Assembly (NCBI GenBank): GCA_016125275.1
Contig: WGMB01000003.1
Span: 1,653,896 to 1,717,895 of the forward strand
Reading direction: 5' to 3'
DNA from: Acidobacteriota bacterium
Lineage (GTDB): Bacteria > Acidobacteriota > Terriglobia > Bryobacterales > UBA6623
Length of the DNA: 64,000 nucleotides
Shown here: in pieces, positions 20,060 to 26,436 of the stretch
How positions within the stretch are numbered: the first letter of the stretch is position 1
Layout of the letters: each line of letters starts with the position of its first letter
The notes under the pieces: model-generated
Database searches by the model: none
What the model saw: only the letters and a program-made list of their open reading frames with translations
Told to the model about the DNA's origin: nothing
Translations under genes and position numbers: made by a program

Positions 20060-20779
20060 ATGCTACTCGGGCTCAACGTTTCCGTTTGGAAAGATTCCCG
20101 CCGCCGCGCGGCCTGGAATCCTCCCTTGCTGCTGCTGTTGACCAGCCTGGGAGCGGCGGCGCTGACCGCCCAGTCGCAAAAGGTCGAGCAAGGCCCCTAC
20201 CGCCTGGAAATCTCCCTCGAGCGCGAGACCCCCAGCGGCTGGGAAACCGTCGAGCCCGGCCTGATCCTCGAAGCCGACGACCTCGTCCGCTTTCGCGTCG
20301 TCTCCAACGCCGACGGGTACCTCAACGTCAGCAGCAAAGGAACCAGCGGGGCCTACACCACGCTGTTTCCCTCCGTCGACGCCGGCGAGGAGAACCGCAT
20401 CCTGGCCGGCCGCATGATCCCGGTGCCGCAAACCGCCGGCGCCTTCCGGCTCAAGGGCCCCGCCGGGCACGACATCGTCTATTGGGTGCTGAGCCCGCAG
20501 CCCTTGCCCGCGCCCTACCAGCCGCTGCCCGCCGCGCCGGCTTCTCCGCCGCCCAGCGCCGAGCTGATGCCGCGCTGTGATGAAACCATCCTGCGCGCCC
20601 GCGGCGACTGCGTGGACTCCTCGTCCGGCGTGCGAAGCTCACAGGATCATGGCTCCAACGCCTCCGCGCAGCGTTCCCGTGACCTGCTGTTCGTGCAGAA
20701 GAAGAAGTCCTCCGTCGTCAGCGCCCCCGAAGGCCTCCAGGGCCCGGTGATCTTCGAATACAGGATCGCCCACAAATAA
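20060..20779 (+). CDS. DUF4384-type exported protein
   Basis: A 239-residue protein. An N-terminal hydrophobic segment (LLLLLTSLGAAALTAQ) suggests a signal or anchor after about 20 leading residues. The core (LILEADDLVRFRVVSNADGY ... TLFPSVDAGEENRILAG ... FRLKGPAGHDIVYWVLS) matches the DUF4384 pattern, a beta-sandwich often found next to, or fused with, caspase-like peptidases and serine/threonine kinases. A Pro/Ala-rich linker precedes the C-terminal tail. It is 4 nt upstream of the caspase-like gene, so the two form an operon. Function is unproven; a cell-surface or regulatory partner is likely from context. Confidence 0.75.
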   Translation: MLLGLNVSVWKDSRRRAAWNPPLLLLLTSLGAAALTAQSQKVEQGPYRLEISLERETPSGWETVEPGLILEADDLVRFRVVSNADGYLNVSSKGTSGAYTTLFPSVDAGEENRILAGRMIPVPQTAGAFRLKGPAGHDIVYWVLSPQPLPAPYQPLPAAPASPPPSAELMPRCDETILRARGDCVDSSSGVRSSQDHGSNASAQRSRDLLFVQKKKSSVVSAPEGLQGPVIFEYRIAHK

Positions 20780-20783
20780 CGCC

Positions 20784-22868
20784 ATGCCTGTCCTCGGCCG
20801 CCTCCTGCTCCTCTCCCTGTTGGCCGCGGCGGCCGTCGCACAACAGCCGGCCCAGCCCCAGAAGCGCGACTTGAACCTGGTGGACGAAGATCCGGCCAAG
20901 GTCCTGGCCGAATCCGGCGTCCCCCGCAGCTACGCCCTCGTCGTCGGCGTCTCGCAGTACCAAAAGCTGCCCGAGAAGAGCTGGCTGCAGTTCGCCACTC
21001 GCGACGCCGAAGCCATCTACCGCATCCTCATCAGCCCCGAGGGCGGCAACTTCCGCACCGAGAACGTCCGCCTGCTCACCGGCGACCAGGCCACCAAGGC
21101 CAATCTCACCAGGGAGCTCGAGGAGTGGCTGCCCGGCAAGGCCCAGCCCGGCGACCGCGTGCTCATCTACTTCGCCGGCCACGGCTTCGTCGCCGACGGA
21201 CAGGCCTATCTGGCGCCCTTTGACGTCGACCCCGCCGACATCGCCGCCTCCGGCTACTCCATGAGCCGTCTCGGCGAGGTCATCGGCGGCAAGATCCAAG
21301 CCAAGGACAAGGTGCTCATCACCGACTCCTGCCACAGCGGCGCCATCACGCCCACTGCCGAGGGCGAAGCCAACTCGGCGCTCAACGCCTCTCTGCTCGA
21401 CCTCAACACCTCCACCTTCGTGCTCACCGCCAGCCGCGACCGCGAGTCCTCCTACGAGGGCGACGCCTGGGGCGGCGGCCACGGCGTATTCACCTACTAC
21501 GTCGTCAAGGGCCTCGAAGGCGAGGCCGACTGGAACGGCGACGCCATCGTCACCGCCGACGAGCTCGCCGAGTACACCCGCACCGAGGTCCGCCGCGCCA
21601 CCCGCACGCTGCAAACGCCCACCTCCGACCGCGGCAGCTTCAACCCCAACATGCTGCTGGCCTACTTCCCCAGCGGCTCGGCCATCTCGCCCGCCGCCCC
21701 GCCCGAGGAGCGCTACGGCACGCTCGTGTTCGAGTCCAACAAGGACGGCGTCGAGCTGTTCCTCGACGGCGAGCCCCAAGGCGTCGTCAACCAGAACAAG
21801 CCCCTCACGCTCCCCGGCCTGCGCGCCGGCGCCCACTCCATCCAGGGCGTCAAGATGGGCTACGAGCCCGACGGCCCCCGCGAGGAGATCGTCTACCCGG
21901 GCCAGAAGAAGACCGTCAAGCTCAAGATCCTGTTCCCCCGCAAGCAGAGCCCCGAGGCCGCCAAGGCCCTCGAGGAAGGCGTCGAGCTCTACCAGCGCGG
22001 CGAGGAGCGCAACTACCGCAAGGCCGTCGAAAAGCTCGAGCTGGCCCTCTCGCTCGAGCCCGACTACTCCCGGGCGGCCATGTACCTGGGCCGCGCCTAC
22101 AGCGCCCTGTTCGACTACGACGAGGCCAAGCGGGCCTACGAAAAGGCCATCGAGATCGACCCGGACTACCTCGAAGCCCGCTCCAGCTACGGCGGCATGC
22201 TGCTCGACATCGGCGAGGCCGACGAAGCCATCCGCCAGCTCACCTTCGTCACCCAGCGCGAGAAGGACAACTTTCTGGCCTGGCTGATGCTCACCCACAC
22301 CCTGCACATCAAGGATCTCTACGACCGCTCCATCGAAGCGGCCCAGAACGCCATCCGGCTCGAGCCCGAGGCCGCCGAGCCGCACCTGGTGCTCGCCGAC
22401 GACTACCGCCTCAGCGACCGCTGCGAGCAGGCCCTGCCCGAGTACGAGCGCTACCTGGAGCTGAGCGACTTCCAGAGCTCCGCCGCCGGCAAGATCTTCG
22501 GCTACGGCCTGCGCGGCTTCCTCGTCGGCGGCGGCAAGAAGACCCGCGCCTCGATCAAGGACATCTGGCAGACCCTGCAAGTCCGCGCCTACCACGGCCT
22601 CGGCGACTGCGAACGCATCCTCTACCGTCCCGACCCCGCCATCGCCTACTACCGCAAGGCGCTCGACGTGGCCGAGGACGACCCCATGCTGCACTTCGGG
22701 CTGGCCCTGGCGCTCACCCGCAAGACCGAGATCACCGGCGACCTCGCCTACCTGCCCCAGGCCCGCGAGCAGTTTCAGCGAGTCGTCTCCCTCAACCCCG
22801 CTTTGGACGAAGCCGAGCAGGCCCGCGGCTATATCGGTAAGATCGAGTCATTGCTCAAGGGGCAGTGA
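20784..22868 (+). CDS. Caspase-like peptidase with PEGA and TPR domains
   Basis: A 694-residue protein. A signal-like N-terminus (GRLLLLSLLAAAAVAQQ) precedes a C14-type caspase fold (SYALVVGVSQYQKLP ...) with the catalytic pair His133 (YFAGHG) and Cys183 (TDSCHSG). Around residues 310-390 is a PEGA-type domain (GVELFLDGEPQGVV ... LRAGAHSIQGVKMGYEPDG). The rest is a TPR array (SRAAMYLGRAYSALFDYDEA, PDYLEARSSYGGMLLDIGEA). Substrates are unknown. Prokaryotic caspase homologues of this layout probably act on envelope or signalling proteins. It is co-directional with DUF4384 upstream and the Ig-like gene 21 nt downstream. Both catalytic residues are intact. Confidence 0.88.
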   Translation: MPVLGRLLLLSLLAAAAVAQQPAQPQKRDLNLVDEDPAKVLAESGVPRSYALVVGVSQYQKLPEKSWLQFATRDAEAIYRILISPEGGNFRTENVRLLTGDQATKANLTRELEEWLPGKAQPGDRVLIYFAGHGFVADGQAYLAPFDVDPADIAASGYSMSRLGEVIGGKIQAKDKVLITDSCHSGAITPTAEGEANSALNASLLDLNTSTFVLTASRDRESSYEGDAWGGGHGVFTYYVVKGLEGEADWNGDAIVTADELAEYTRTEVRRATRTLQTPTSDRGSFNPNMLLAYFPSGSAISPAAPPEERYGTLVFESNKDGVELFLDGEPQGVVNQNKPLTLPGLRAGAHSIQGVKMGYEPDGPREEIVYPGQKKTVKLKILFPRKQSPEAAKALEEGVELYQRGEERNYRKAVEKLELALSLEPDYSRAAMYLGRAYSALFDYDEAKRAYEKAIEIDPDYLEARSSYGGMLLDIGEADEAIRQLTFVTQREKDNFLAWLMLTHTLHIKDLYDRSIEAAQNAIRLEPEAAEPHLVLADDYRLSDRCEQALPEYERYLELSDFQSSAAGKIFGYGLRGFLVGGGKKTRASIKDIWQTLQVRAYHGLGDCERILYRPDPAIAYYRKALDVAEDDPMLHFGLALALTRKTEITGDLAYLPQAREQFQRVVSLNPALDEAEQARGYIGKIESLLKGQ

Positions 22869-22889
22869 CGTCCGGCCGAAGACACCATC

Positions 22890-23534
22890 ATGCCTACGAT
22901 CCACACCTTGCTCCGCGTCGGCCTCTCGGCCCTGCTCGTGGCTCTGTCGCTCCGCCCGGACGTGGCCTTCGCGCAAGCCTCCACCACGGCGCCGAAGCTC
23001 AAGATCAACATCCTCGACGGCCAGGGCGCGGTCAACAACGTCAAGCAGCGCATGGCGCGCGAGCCCGTGGTGCAGGTCACCGACGAGAACGACCGCCCCG
23101 TCGGCGGCGCCTTGGTCACCTTCGCCCTGCCACAGCAAGGCCCCAGCGGCATCTTCTCCAACGGCGCGCGCTCGCTGACCGTCACCACTGACGCCAACGG
23201 CCAGGCCGCCACCGGCCCCATCACGGCCAACTCCTCCAAGGGCGATTTCGAGATTCAAGTCTCGGCCTCGCACGAGGGTCAAACCGCGACCACGACGCTC
23301 AACCAGACCAACATCGGCGCGGGCCTGTCGGCGGCGACCCTGGGAATCATCATCGGAGCCGTGGCCGCGGGCGCGGCCATCGCCATCATCGCCTCCACCG
23401 GCGGCGGCAACGACTCACAGACCAATCGCACCACCACCATCACCCCCGGCGGAGGCACGGTGACTTCGCCGCTGACGATCGCGCCCGGCATGGCCGGCCG
23501 CTCCGGCGCCCCCGGCTTCCAACTCTCCTGGTAA
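22890..23534 (+). CDS. Secreted Ig-like protein with a C-terminal membrane segment
   Basis: A 214-residue protein. The signal peptide (LLRVGLSALLVALSL, cleavage after AFAQ) is followed by a bacterial Ig-like (Big_1/invasin-type) domain: REPVVQVTDENDRPVGGALV, then GIFSNGARSLTVTTDANGQA. A strongly hydrophobic segment (AATLGIIIGAVAAGAAIAII) near residues 148-170 is probably a membrane span. A Gly/Thr/Ser-rich tail follows. It is the third gene of the DUF4384-caspase cluster. Similar proteins in Acidobacteriota carry this Big_1-plus-TM layout. A role in surface display or signalling to the caspase-like protein is inference. Confidence 0.75.
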   Translation: MPTIHTLLRVGLSALLVALSLRPDVAFAQASTTAPKLKINILDGQGAVNNVKQRMAREPVVQVTDENDRPVGGALVTFALPQQGPSGIFSNGARSLTVTTDANGQAATGPITANSSKGDFEIQVSASHEGQTATTTLNQTNIGAGLSAATLGIIIGAVAAGAAIAIIASTGGGNDSQTNRTTTITPGGGTVTSPLTIAPGMAGRSGAPGFQLSW

Positions 23535-23552: not shown

Positions 23553-24992
23553 TCAGCCCCAAGTCCCCTGCAAACCCTGCGCAGGCTCGGCAATTGACTG
23601 GAACCTTACCAACCGCACGGTATCGCTGTTCTTCAGCGCCGCCAGCGGCATCACGCCGGCCTCCAGCATCTTCTCGATGCCCCGCTCGGTCAGCAGCGCC
23701 TCGGTCGGCGGCTGCAGCTTGTCCTCGCCGTCCTCGCTGTAGGAGTACAGCGGCAGCCGCTCCGCGTCCCGCGCCCGCAGCCGCATCTCCCAGCCCTGCT
23801 CGCTGAAGGTCTGCGCCGCCAGGCAAGCCGCCAGCAAGGCCGCGTTCGCCCACAAGTAGTCGTCCGGCCCCGGCGCGCCCTCGATCTCCTCGAACGCGAA
23901 CGTCTCGCACGGGTCCGAGTCCCGCCCGTACGGCGCCCTCGCCAGAAAACGCGGTCCCGCCAGTCCGATCCAAGGCGCCTCCGGAAACGTCCGCAGTTGC
24001 CGCCACCATTCGCTCGGCTCCGCCTGCCACTGGTTCGGCTCGGCCAGCGCCTCCGCCGACGGGCAACCGTACAGCGCCGGCGAAGCCCCCGCCAGCAGCG
24101 GCGCCTCGGCCGCCCGAGCCAGCCCGCCCAGCATCGCGATCAGCCGCACATCGTCTTCGCTATCGCCGATCGTCAAATCCGCGGCCAGCAGCGACCAGCG
24201 CGGCGCGCCCGGCGTCGCCACCGTCGACTCCACCAGCACTTTGTACAGCGCCGACTCGCTCAAGTCCGCGCCGCCGAACAGGTCCGCCTCCATCTCTTCC
24301 CGCGACACGTCCAGCAGGTAGAGCTTCAAGTCGACACCCGTCTCGATCCGCCGCGTGAGCTGAAACAGCGTCCGCCACAGCGCCTCCAGCCGCGCCAGCG
24401 GCGGATACCGCAGCAGCGCCCGCATCGACTCGCCAACCGTCTCGTCCACCTTGCCGATCAGCTCCGGCTGCCGCGGGTCGGCCGCCGGCTCGGCGTGCTT
24501 CTCCACCACCCGGTCGATGAACTGCTCCAGCCCGTCCTTGCGCCGCGGCGCCGGCGCCGCCTCGGTTTCGGACAGGATGCTGTCGAGCAAGCTGCCGCCG
24601 CCCGCCGCGGGCGCGACCGTCACCGCCGCCGGAGCCGGTTTCGGCGCCGCCGGCTCGATCTCCGCCTGCATCCGCCGCGCCGCTTGCCGGAACGACGCCG
24701 GGTCCTGCAGTTGCTCCCGCAGATCCTTGAGCTGCTCGAACGCCGGAACCTCCTCCAGCAGCCGATCCGGGTGAAAATCGTCCAGCTCGTGCAGCTCCAG
24801 CGTAAAGCTGCCGCCGTCGCCCAGCCCCAACTTCACGCCCGGCCGCAGCCGCGCCAGCACAGCGTCGAAATTGTCTCGATCGACAGCCAGCGGACGCCTC
24901 TGCGCCAACGCCGGACCTGCGGCGTCAGCCCCTCGCGAAGCCCTCCCGCTGAAGTCGCCCAACAGGAGAATACGAAATGGATCTTCGCGCAT
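23553..24992 (-). CDS. Fused TssB-TssC type VI contractile sheath protein
   Basis: A 479-residue protein. The first ~120 residues are TssB/VipA-like (PFRILLLGDFSGRAS, then DNFDAVLARLRPGVKL and the ELDDFHPDRLLEEVPAF motif). An Ala/Pro-rich linker follows. From about residue 190 the sequence is TssC/VipB-like (YPPLARLEALWRTLFQLTRR, LDVSREEMEADLF, WIGLAGPRFLARAPYG, DYLWANAALLAACLAAQTF, LTERGIEKMLEAGVMPLAAL). The usual small-subunit and large-subunit genes are thus joined, and the TssC part stops soon after the conserved LxxxGxxPL region, about 90 residues short of a standard TssC. It is divergent from tssK across an 82-nt gap. Confidence 0.82.
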   Translation of the reverse strand: MREDPFRILLLGDFSGRASRGADAAGPALAQRRPLAVDRDNFDAVLARLRPGVKLGLGDGGSFTLELHELDDFHPDRLLEEVPAFEQLKDLREQLQDPASFRQAARRMQAEIEPAAPKPAPAAVTVAPAAGGGSLLDSILSETEAAPAPRRKDGLEQFIDRVVEKHAEPAADPRQPELIGKVDETVGESMRALLRYPPLARLEALWRTLFQLTRRIETGVDLKLYLLDVSREEMEADLFGGADLSESALYKVLVESTVATPGAPRWSLLAADLTIGDSEDDVRLIAMLGGLARAAEAPLLAGASPALYGCPSAEALAEPNQWQAEPSEWWRQLRTFPEAPWIGLAGPRFLARAPYGRDSDPCETFAFEEIEGAPGPDDYLWANAALLAACLAAQTFSEQGWEMRLRARDAERLPLYSYSEDGEDKLQPPTEALLTERGIEKMLEAGVMPLAALKNSDTVRLVRFQSIAEPAQGLQGTWG

Positions 24993-25060
24993 CGGCCCCC
25001 ATTCTCAACTACCGCCCGGCCCCTGTCAAAGCCCCTCTTCTCGGGCGCCGTCGGGTCTGC

Positions 25061-25066
25061 TAGGGT
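25061..25066 (+). promoter_or_regulatory. -10-like TAGGGT, leaderless tssK start
   Basis: TAGGGT ends 8 nt before the ATG at 25075. Confidence 0.4.
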
Positions 25067-25074
25067 AGAAATCC

Positions 25075-26436
25075 ATGCGCCGGCTGCAACCCGTCATCTG
25101 GTCGAAGGGCACGTTCCTGACGCCGCAGCACTTACAGGCGCAGGACCGCTACATCGAGGGCTTGCTCGGCTTCCGCCTGCAAGCCCAGACCTTCCGCCCC
25201 TGGGGCTTTCGCGAGCTCGAGATCGACCAGGAGCAGCTCTCCAACGGCATCCTGCAGGTCAACCGGGCCTCCGGCCTCATGCCCGACGGCTTGGCCTTCG
25301 ACATCCCCGGCCCCGACCCGGCGCCCACGCCCAAGCCCCTCGCCGCCCACTTCAAGGGCGACCGCCGCCGCCTCAAGGCCTTCCTCGCCATCCCGCCCTT
25401 GCGCGAAGGCGCCGTCAACGTCTCGCCGCCCACGGACCGCGCCGACACCCGCTACATCTCCGAGGCCATGGCCTTGCGCGACGAGAACACCGGGCAGATG
25501 GAGAAGTCCATCCAGGTCGGCCGCAAGAACTTCCGCATCGTCACCGAAGTGGAGTCCCAGCGCGGCCTCACGGTGATGCCTCTGGCGCACGTGGAGCTCT
25601 CCGCCGCCGACGTCTTTCAGCTCGACCCGCGCTTCGTGCCGCCCGTCAGCGTCACCGCCGCCAGCGAATACCTGGTCGCCATCGCGCGCCGCATCGTCGA
25701 GATCCTGGCCGCCAAGAGCACCACCCTCGCCGGCATCCGCCGCGAAAAGAACGCCCTGCTGGCCGACTACACTACCTACGACGTCGCCAACTTCTGGCTG
25801 CTCTACACCGTCAATTCTTACTTCCCCGGCTTCCGCCGCCTGTTCGAGGGCAACCGCTCCCACCCCGAGCAGCTCTTCCGCACCATGCTCGAGATGGCCG
25901 GCGCCCTCACCGCGTTCTCCTCCGAGATCCAGACCGCCGACCTGCCCGTCTACGACCACTCCGACCTCGGAACCTGCTTCACCGACCTCGACGAGAAGCT
26001 GCGCCGCCTGCTCGACACCGTCATCCCGCGCAACTTCATTACCCTGCCGCTCGAAAAGGTCCGCACGGCCATTTACGCCACGAACATCGAAGAGCGGCGC
26101 TTCCTCGAAGGCACGCGCCTCTTCCTCGGCGTGGCCACCGAAGCCCGCGTCTCCGACCTCATCAACCGCGGCCCGTCGCTCATCAAGATCGGCTCCAACG
26201 ACTCGGTCGACCAGATGGTCCGCCAAGCCCTGCCCGGCCTGGCGCTGCGCCACCTGCCGAATCCGCCGGCCACCCTGCCGGTCCAGAAGAAGTATCAGTA
26301 CTTCAGCCTCGACCCGGTGGGCGAAGCCTGGGAGCAGATCGTGCGCACGCGTTCCCTGGCCGCCTTCGTCCCCGACGAGCTGCCCTCGCCGCGCCTGGAG
26401 CTGGTGATCCTGCTGCCCGAAGGCCAAACGGTCTAG
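25075..26436 (+). CDS. tssK: Type VI secretion baseplate subunit TssK
   Basis: A 453-residue protein close to the usual ~445. The opening PVIWSKGTFLTPQHLQAQDRY is the TssK signature. Further family features are WGFRELEIDQEQLSNGIL, the SGLMPDGLAFDIP segment and a C-terminal neck/head region ending RLELVILLPEGQTV. TssK connects baseplate wedges to the membrane complex in the cytoplasm. It is divergent from the TssB-TssC fusion and is the only other type VI gene in the window. No TssE, F, G, ClpV, Hcp or VgrG homologue is seen within the window, so the rest of the machine would have to be elsewhere. Confidence 0.9.
   Translation: MRRLQPVIWSKGTFLTPQHLQAQDRYIEGLLGFRLQAQTFRPWGFRELEIDQEQLSNGILQVNRASGLMPDGLAFDIPGPDPAPTPKPLAAHFKGDRRRLKAFLAIPPLREGAVNVSPPTDRADTRYISEAMALRDENTGQMEKSIQVGRKNFRIVTEVESQRGLTVMPLAHVELSAADVFQLDPRFVPPVSVTAASEYLVAIARRIVEILAAKSTTLAGIRREKNALLADYTTYDVANFWLLYTVNSYFPGFRRLFEGNRSHPEQLFRTMLEMAGALTAFSSEIQTADLPVYDHSDLGTCFTDLDEKLRRLLDTVIPRNFITLPLEKVRTAIYATNIEERRFLEGTRLFLGVATEARVSDLINRGPSLIKIGSNDSVDQMVRQALPGLALRHLPNPPATLPVQKKYQYFSLDPVGEAWEQIVRTRSLAAFVPDELPSPRLELVILLPEGQTV

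Follow-up and report, generated by a model that had tools for sequence, protein, structure and literature searches.

The window, a 64-kb stretch of the genome of a soil acidobacterium, carries two genes of the type VI secretion system (T6SS), encoding a fusion of the sheath subunits TssB and TssC and the baseplate subunit TssK (Table 1). The original prediction of one 479-residue chain with a shortened TssC is borne out by the reading frame and by Pfam, which places VipA (PF05591) at residues 3-111 (2.3e-15) and VipB (PF05943) at residues 178-467 (4.2e-52, profile positions 3-300 of 301). Both parts score below the NCBIfam equivalog cut-offs (TIGR03355: 183.6 bits, cut-off 271.5; TIGR03358: 51.4 bits, cut-off 97.25). 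TssK is full length and is matched by PF05936 (433.8 bits, 8.7e-130) and by TIGR03353 (384.9 bits, cut-off 100). Named T6SS proteins used as queries against the window returned no T6SS gene other than these two, leaving TssK as the sole type VI companion of the fusion, as predicted. The adjoining stretch 20060-23534 encodes a DUF4384 protein, one of caspase-TPR type (Peptidase_C14, 20784-22868) and one that weakly resembles Ig-like/carboxypeptidase-regulatory sequences. Genes of the caspase family, with different accessory domains, likewise border the T6SS clusters of loci L059, L060 and L063.

Table 1. Features of the fusion/tssK locus (positions within the window)
Feature	Positions	Strand	Basis or remark
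TssB-TssC fusion, by alignment without sheath domain 1 (no VipB_2)	23553..24992	-	Single open frame, 479 aa
TssB-like part, residues about 1-111	24660..24992	-	PF05591 match; TssB PDB chains
Disordered linker, residues about 112-152	24537..24659	-	pLDDT; contains short helix
Linker helix GGSLLDSILSETEAA, residues about 132-146, resembling the ClpV-docking helix of TssC	in 24537..24659	-	
TssC N-terminal part (middle/outer sheath layer), residues about 179-479	23556..24458	-	PF05943; Foldseek TssC matches
tssK, baseplate subunit, 453 aa, divergent from the fusion	25075..26436	+	PF05936, TIGR03353

When 15 fusions are aligned as a profile, they match TssB from about residue 23 to 124 (e.g. 5urw_1A) and TssC from about residue 10 to 369 out of 494 (Myxococcus 5urw). 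Relative to TssB, the first ~22 residues and the C-terminal end are missing from the fusion, and since the match starts only at about residue 23, so is the N-terminal handshake strand. The absent TssC end was first put at about 90 residues; measured against the canonical TssC of the host (494 aa, VipB_2 from 379), it comes to about 115-120 residues, the entire VipB_2 domain. No VipB_2 match (PF18945) was found in the window fusion or in any other fusion scanned. The tail FQSIAxPxxxLxGxW, or near variants of it, is common to the fusion homologs.

A shortened TssC and profile scores under the NCBIfam cut-offs are what a degenerating pseudogene or an assembly artefact might show, and a remnant and a frameshift had both been considered initially. 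However, dozens of homologs in different genomes stop at the identical point, dN/dS is 0.03-0.14 in close fusion pairs with measurable dS, and the predicted fold is good. The shared end point shows that the fusion is not a frameshift artefact and, together with the low dN/dS, excludes decay; this explanation is refuted, its residual probability being negligible. The fusion is under purifying selection, in agreement with the initial view that it is not decaying.

The AlphaFold2 model of the fusion, based on an alignment of 16 sequences from which one row from a plasmid record was left out, has a pLDDT of 84.7 and a pTM of 0.83. The pLDDT falls below 50 at residues 117-152 of the linker, where a helix is modeled at 136-139. 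Foldseek ranks TssC from T6SS sheaths (5n8n, 3j9g, 5urw) highest, with a weaker match to VipA. In the TssB/TssC protomer, domain 1 is the inner layer, in which TssB β1 and the C-terminal strands of TssC form a handshake; domain 2 comprises TssB β2 and β3 with TssC β1 to β4 and β8, and domain 3 the outer helices; the handshake strands and the inner domain hold the sheath rings together (PMC5807055). Judged by alignment, the fusion retains domains 2 and 3 and lacks domain 1 (TssB β1, the TssC C-terminal strands and VipB_2).

The host assembly (7.55 Mb, 20 contigs, 97.6% complete; window on contig 14) encodes a complete T6SS at other loci, to which the window adds one more piece. Contig 17 has canonical tssB and tssC at its end, and this TssC contains both VipB and VipB_2. 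At the end of contig 4 are hcp, tagJ, tssA, tssE, tssF, tssG, clpV (above the TIGR03345 cut-off) and vgrG, so that the tssE, F, G, clpV, hcp and vgrG genes proposed as search targets are all present, and contig 1 has tssM, tssL and another tssK. The ends of contigs 17 and 4 are probably parts of a single operon, to judge from how the genes are arranged in relatives such as L052. PF18945 occurs once in the genome, in the canonical TssC; the missing piece of the fusion is therefore not encoded separately. The suggestion of a divergent contractile machine does not survive these findings: a separate full-length TssB/TssC pair, which in combination with lack of expression of the fusion had been named beforehand as an argument against it, is present along with the complete T6SS. 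A separate contractile machine or an extracellular contractile system (eCIS) is likewise ruled out by the distant fold scores and by the lack of further structural genes nearby, tssK being the only tube, baseplate or spike gene beside the fusion in the 64-kb window.

The fusion was found in 12 of 60 relatives (35-46% identity), every one of which has a canonical TssC; 8 have the canonical protein only. Canonical TssC is thus present in 13/13 fusion genomes versus 8/48 others (Fisher p 3e-8, uncorrected for shared ancestry). Across the class, counting listed matches, the fusion occurs in 37 of 299 genomes, the orthologs being 35-51% identical with the same end point, and canonical TssC in 35/37 of these versus 36/262 others (Fisher p 2e-23, again uncorrected for shared ancestry). 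Among the matches listed for a sample of the phylum, at least 17 more fusions occur in other classes, nearly all with canonical TssC. The fusion is not essential to every T6SS, because 36 of the 71 T6SS genomes of the class do without it. Two drafts are exceptions: G263 (L093, 93% complete) has the fusion but no TssC, VipB_2, TssF or above-cut-off ClpV, and in G156 (86% complete) the fusion is present and TssC and VipB_2 were not found. These may reflect either assembly gaps or true independence from the T6SS. The absence of a detectable T6SS from G263 and the isolated position of the gene in many Bryobacterales would suit a moonlighting role, in which a domesticated sheath fragment is used outside secretion, but near-perfect co-occurrence with the T6SS and location in T6SS clusters across two phyla make this very unlikely.

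In most Bryobacterales relatives the T6SS genes are dispersed and the fusion has no T6SS neighbors, which accounts for the "lone" tssK of the window. In other loci the fusion lies near a B-C-hcp-tagJ-A-E-F-G-H block (L043, L075, L076, L077, L080/L081, L086, L087), near tssM/L/K (L079, L082, L088) or, as in the window, beside tssK (L045, L078). T6SS clusters in other families of the class include the fusion: it is directly upstream of tssB-tssC in L076 and L077, the divergent fusion/tssK pair recurs in L078, and in L075 the fusion, again divergent from tssK, sits between a B-C-hcp-tagJ-A-E-F-G block and tssK-tssK-tssL. T6SS clusters are complete in L059, L060, L062 and L064. The Eleftheria terrae cluster has tssK followed by the fusion; in roseobacters the fusion lies between clpV and vgrG. 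A RebB family R-body gene cluster lies downstream of the Eleftheria T6SS (L062 33199-35298). No conserved upstream partner emerged in Bryobacterales, where the neighbors vary (KaiC-like, GHL10-like, methyltransferase, sigma factor); in two genomes of one genus, a conserved gene with weak similarity to glycosyl hydrolases (GHL10) is directly upstream of the fusion (L037 9013-11055(-), L038 6805-8856(+)). A candidate ClpV beside the fusion in L046 was rejected, as the gene of the same cluster in host locus L050 is a MacB/FtsX permease.

The recurrent tssK neighbor (window, L043, L045, L075, L078 and Eleftheria L062) bears on the main rival explanation, that the fusion is an end piece or baseplate adaptor that stops or starts polymerisation by packing, with its domains 2 and 3, against the sheath's first or last ring or against TssK and the baseplate. 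Retention of the outer and middle layers with loss of the inner handshake would be compatible with such a part. However, tssK flanks tssB also in a genome without the fusion (L052), and the neighborhood is therefore not specific; moreover, the handshake strands expected of a ring or baseplate adaptor are absent. We consider this explanation unlikely. A tssK specific to the fusion was also ruled out: the window-type tssK occurs in 20 of 21 related T6SS genomes, whether the fusion is present or absent, usually with a second tssK. "Lone", as the gene was first described, thus holds for its position beside the fusion in the window, but not for its type, which is that of the T6SS. As a rule, a Bryobacterales genome with a T6SS has two tssK paralogs (about 33-42% identical); those of the host (G000) are at C14:1678970 and C1:281794.

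The linker is poorly conserved except for a near-invariant Ser134 and an invariant Leu136 within GGSLLDSIL, and in the profile alignment its helix pairs with the N-terminal helix of TssC. The latter is the docking site of ClpV, with the sequence LLDEII in V. cholerae (PMC4239648, PMC5048182), and at the sequence level the fusion carries a helix of this type. LLDxI or a close variant is found in acidobacterial fusions and likewise in their canonical TssC. Proteobacterial fusions have (D/S/A)(D/A)FxxL(L/I/V) and their TssC a similar (D/E)FxxLL (SDFQKLI, SAFQQLI and DDFARLV in roseobacter and Eleftheria fusions versus SEFEALL, AEFANLL and SDFSALL in TssC); the motif is weak in a few fusions (L088, L083). 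Because the helix resembles that of the cognate TssC in each lineage, we read this motif pattern as suggesting that the fusion follows the ClpV of its own lineage. TagJ and the TssC docking motif have been considered not to occur together, except only in Solibacter usitatus (PMC4239648). One T6SS here combines TagJ (ImpE) with a TssC containing LLDQI (L092 12907-13869 with L005 18316-19800), and this combination appears to be general in these acidobacterial clusters.

Phylogenetically, the fusions fall into a single clade, distinct from canonical TssC (UFBoot 100 for the split, branch length 1.09), spanning Acidobacteriota, Eleftheria (Betaproteobacteria) and roseobacters. Proteobacterial fusions nest among acidobacterial ones, with UFBoot 94 for the grouping with L083. 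The roseobacter proteins bring in TssC_L, a TssB-TssC fusion with a second, N-terminal full-length VipA domain, reported only from Alphaproteobacteria and described as a recent event there (PMC9515649). A literature search, which may have missed later work on TssC_L, returned no fusion under the name TssB-TssC or TssBC. The annotated starts of the roseobacter genes (L060 16225-19728, L064 12318-15728, L059 16459-19650) miss the N-terminal TssB; when the frames are extended upstream, a first, full TssB appears that is 77-84% identical to the canonical one. These proteins contain acidic LDDLLxxL repeats and a tail, (D/E)MDxELxALLxxL, in common with Eleftheria. The compact form occurs in Acidobacteriota and Eleftheria. 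As the proteobacterial forms nest among the acidobacterial ones, TssC_L looks like a derived form of a more widespread compact protein, and transfer would have run from Acidobacteriota to Proteobacteria.

Taken as a whole, these observations lead us to favor, with a little less than even confidence, a conserved accessory T6SS subunit: a single-chain mimic of the TssB:TssC protomer that modulates the sheath via ClpV. Without the handshake strands and domain 1, the fusion could neither give nor take strands and would not polymerise into a sheath; it would instead act on the sheath built by canonical TssB/TssC. The motif makes ClpV the most likely route, through docking, recruitment of or competition for this disassembly ATPase by the linker helix. 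The fusion would thereby set sheath turnover, tuning sheath assembly or ClpV recycling. In roseobacters, the extra full TssB and the long acidic linker could tether the module to the sheath.

That same extra TssB could enter the sheath, which, with the intact TssB:TssC core, would fit a co-assembling subunit that occupies some positions of a normal sheath and alters its stability or contraction. The compact form, however, has neither handshake strands nor inner domain, and among 152 invariant positions of canonical TssC the fusion keeps 40, replaces 40 and has no counterpart for 48; co-assembly is accordingly quite unlikely. Extending the accessory-subunit reading to the whole phylum is possible but somewhat doubtful: the fusions would imitate sheath protomers without polymerising, and would be ancestral to Acidobacteriota, with later transfer to Proteobacteria. 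By offering ClpV the docking helix of TssC away from the contracted sheath they would regulate sheath recycling, and they would constitute a third T6SS sheath gene.

The fused short sheath gene of this soil acidobacterium is neither a new weapon nor a wreck, but a conserved extra part of an ordinary T6SS. The roseobacter fusion, in turn, is not a recent alphaproteobacterial oddity; it belongs to a widespread family whose lesion is now defined as loss of the entire inner sheath domain with retention of a helix of the ClpV-docking type. This raises the testable question of whether sheath assembly or recycling is under the control of a dedicated mimic that does not itself polymerise. Annotation pipelines label plasmid-borne fusions "contractile sheath large subunit", a name that may distort T6SS counts and phylogenies of the sheath.

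Among known systems, TssC_L (PMC9515649) is a TssB-TssC fusion in a T6SS cluster beside canonical tssB and tssC; matches in Leisingera, Ruegeria and Qingshengfaniella fit its description, and their cores fall in the clade of the window protein. In both, a single chain has VipA followed by VipB, and the genome also contains tssB and tssC as separate genes. TssC_L differs by its long acidic repeats and by the additional full-length TssB that precedes the core, whereas the window form is the compact core with one VipA. TssC40 (ImpD) of Agrobacterium and Rhizobium, which is needed for Hcp secretion and is non-redundant (PMC3702570), is likewise a second TssC homolog adjoining the canonical one. 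However, in Rhizobium and Azospirillum the homologs are full-length proteins that include VipB_2 but no TssB part, and equivalence to the fusion was rejected on these grounds; the tree places TssC40/ImpD next to the fusions (UFBoot 89), possibly through long-branch attraction. Extracellular and phage contractile sheaths (9gtp, phage 812) have a distant fold similarity to the fusion, with Foldseek E-values of 1e-3 or worse versus 1e-21 for T6SS TssC. The canonical TssB/TssC (VipA/VipB) sheath has the same fold in domains 2 and 3; in contrast, the fusion is one chain, without VipB_2 and the TssB N-terminal strand, and scores below both NCBIfam cut-offs.
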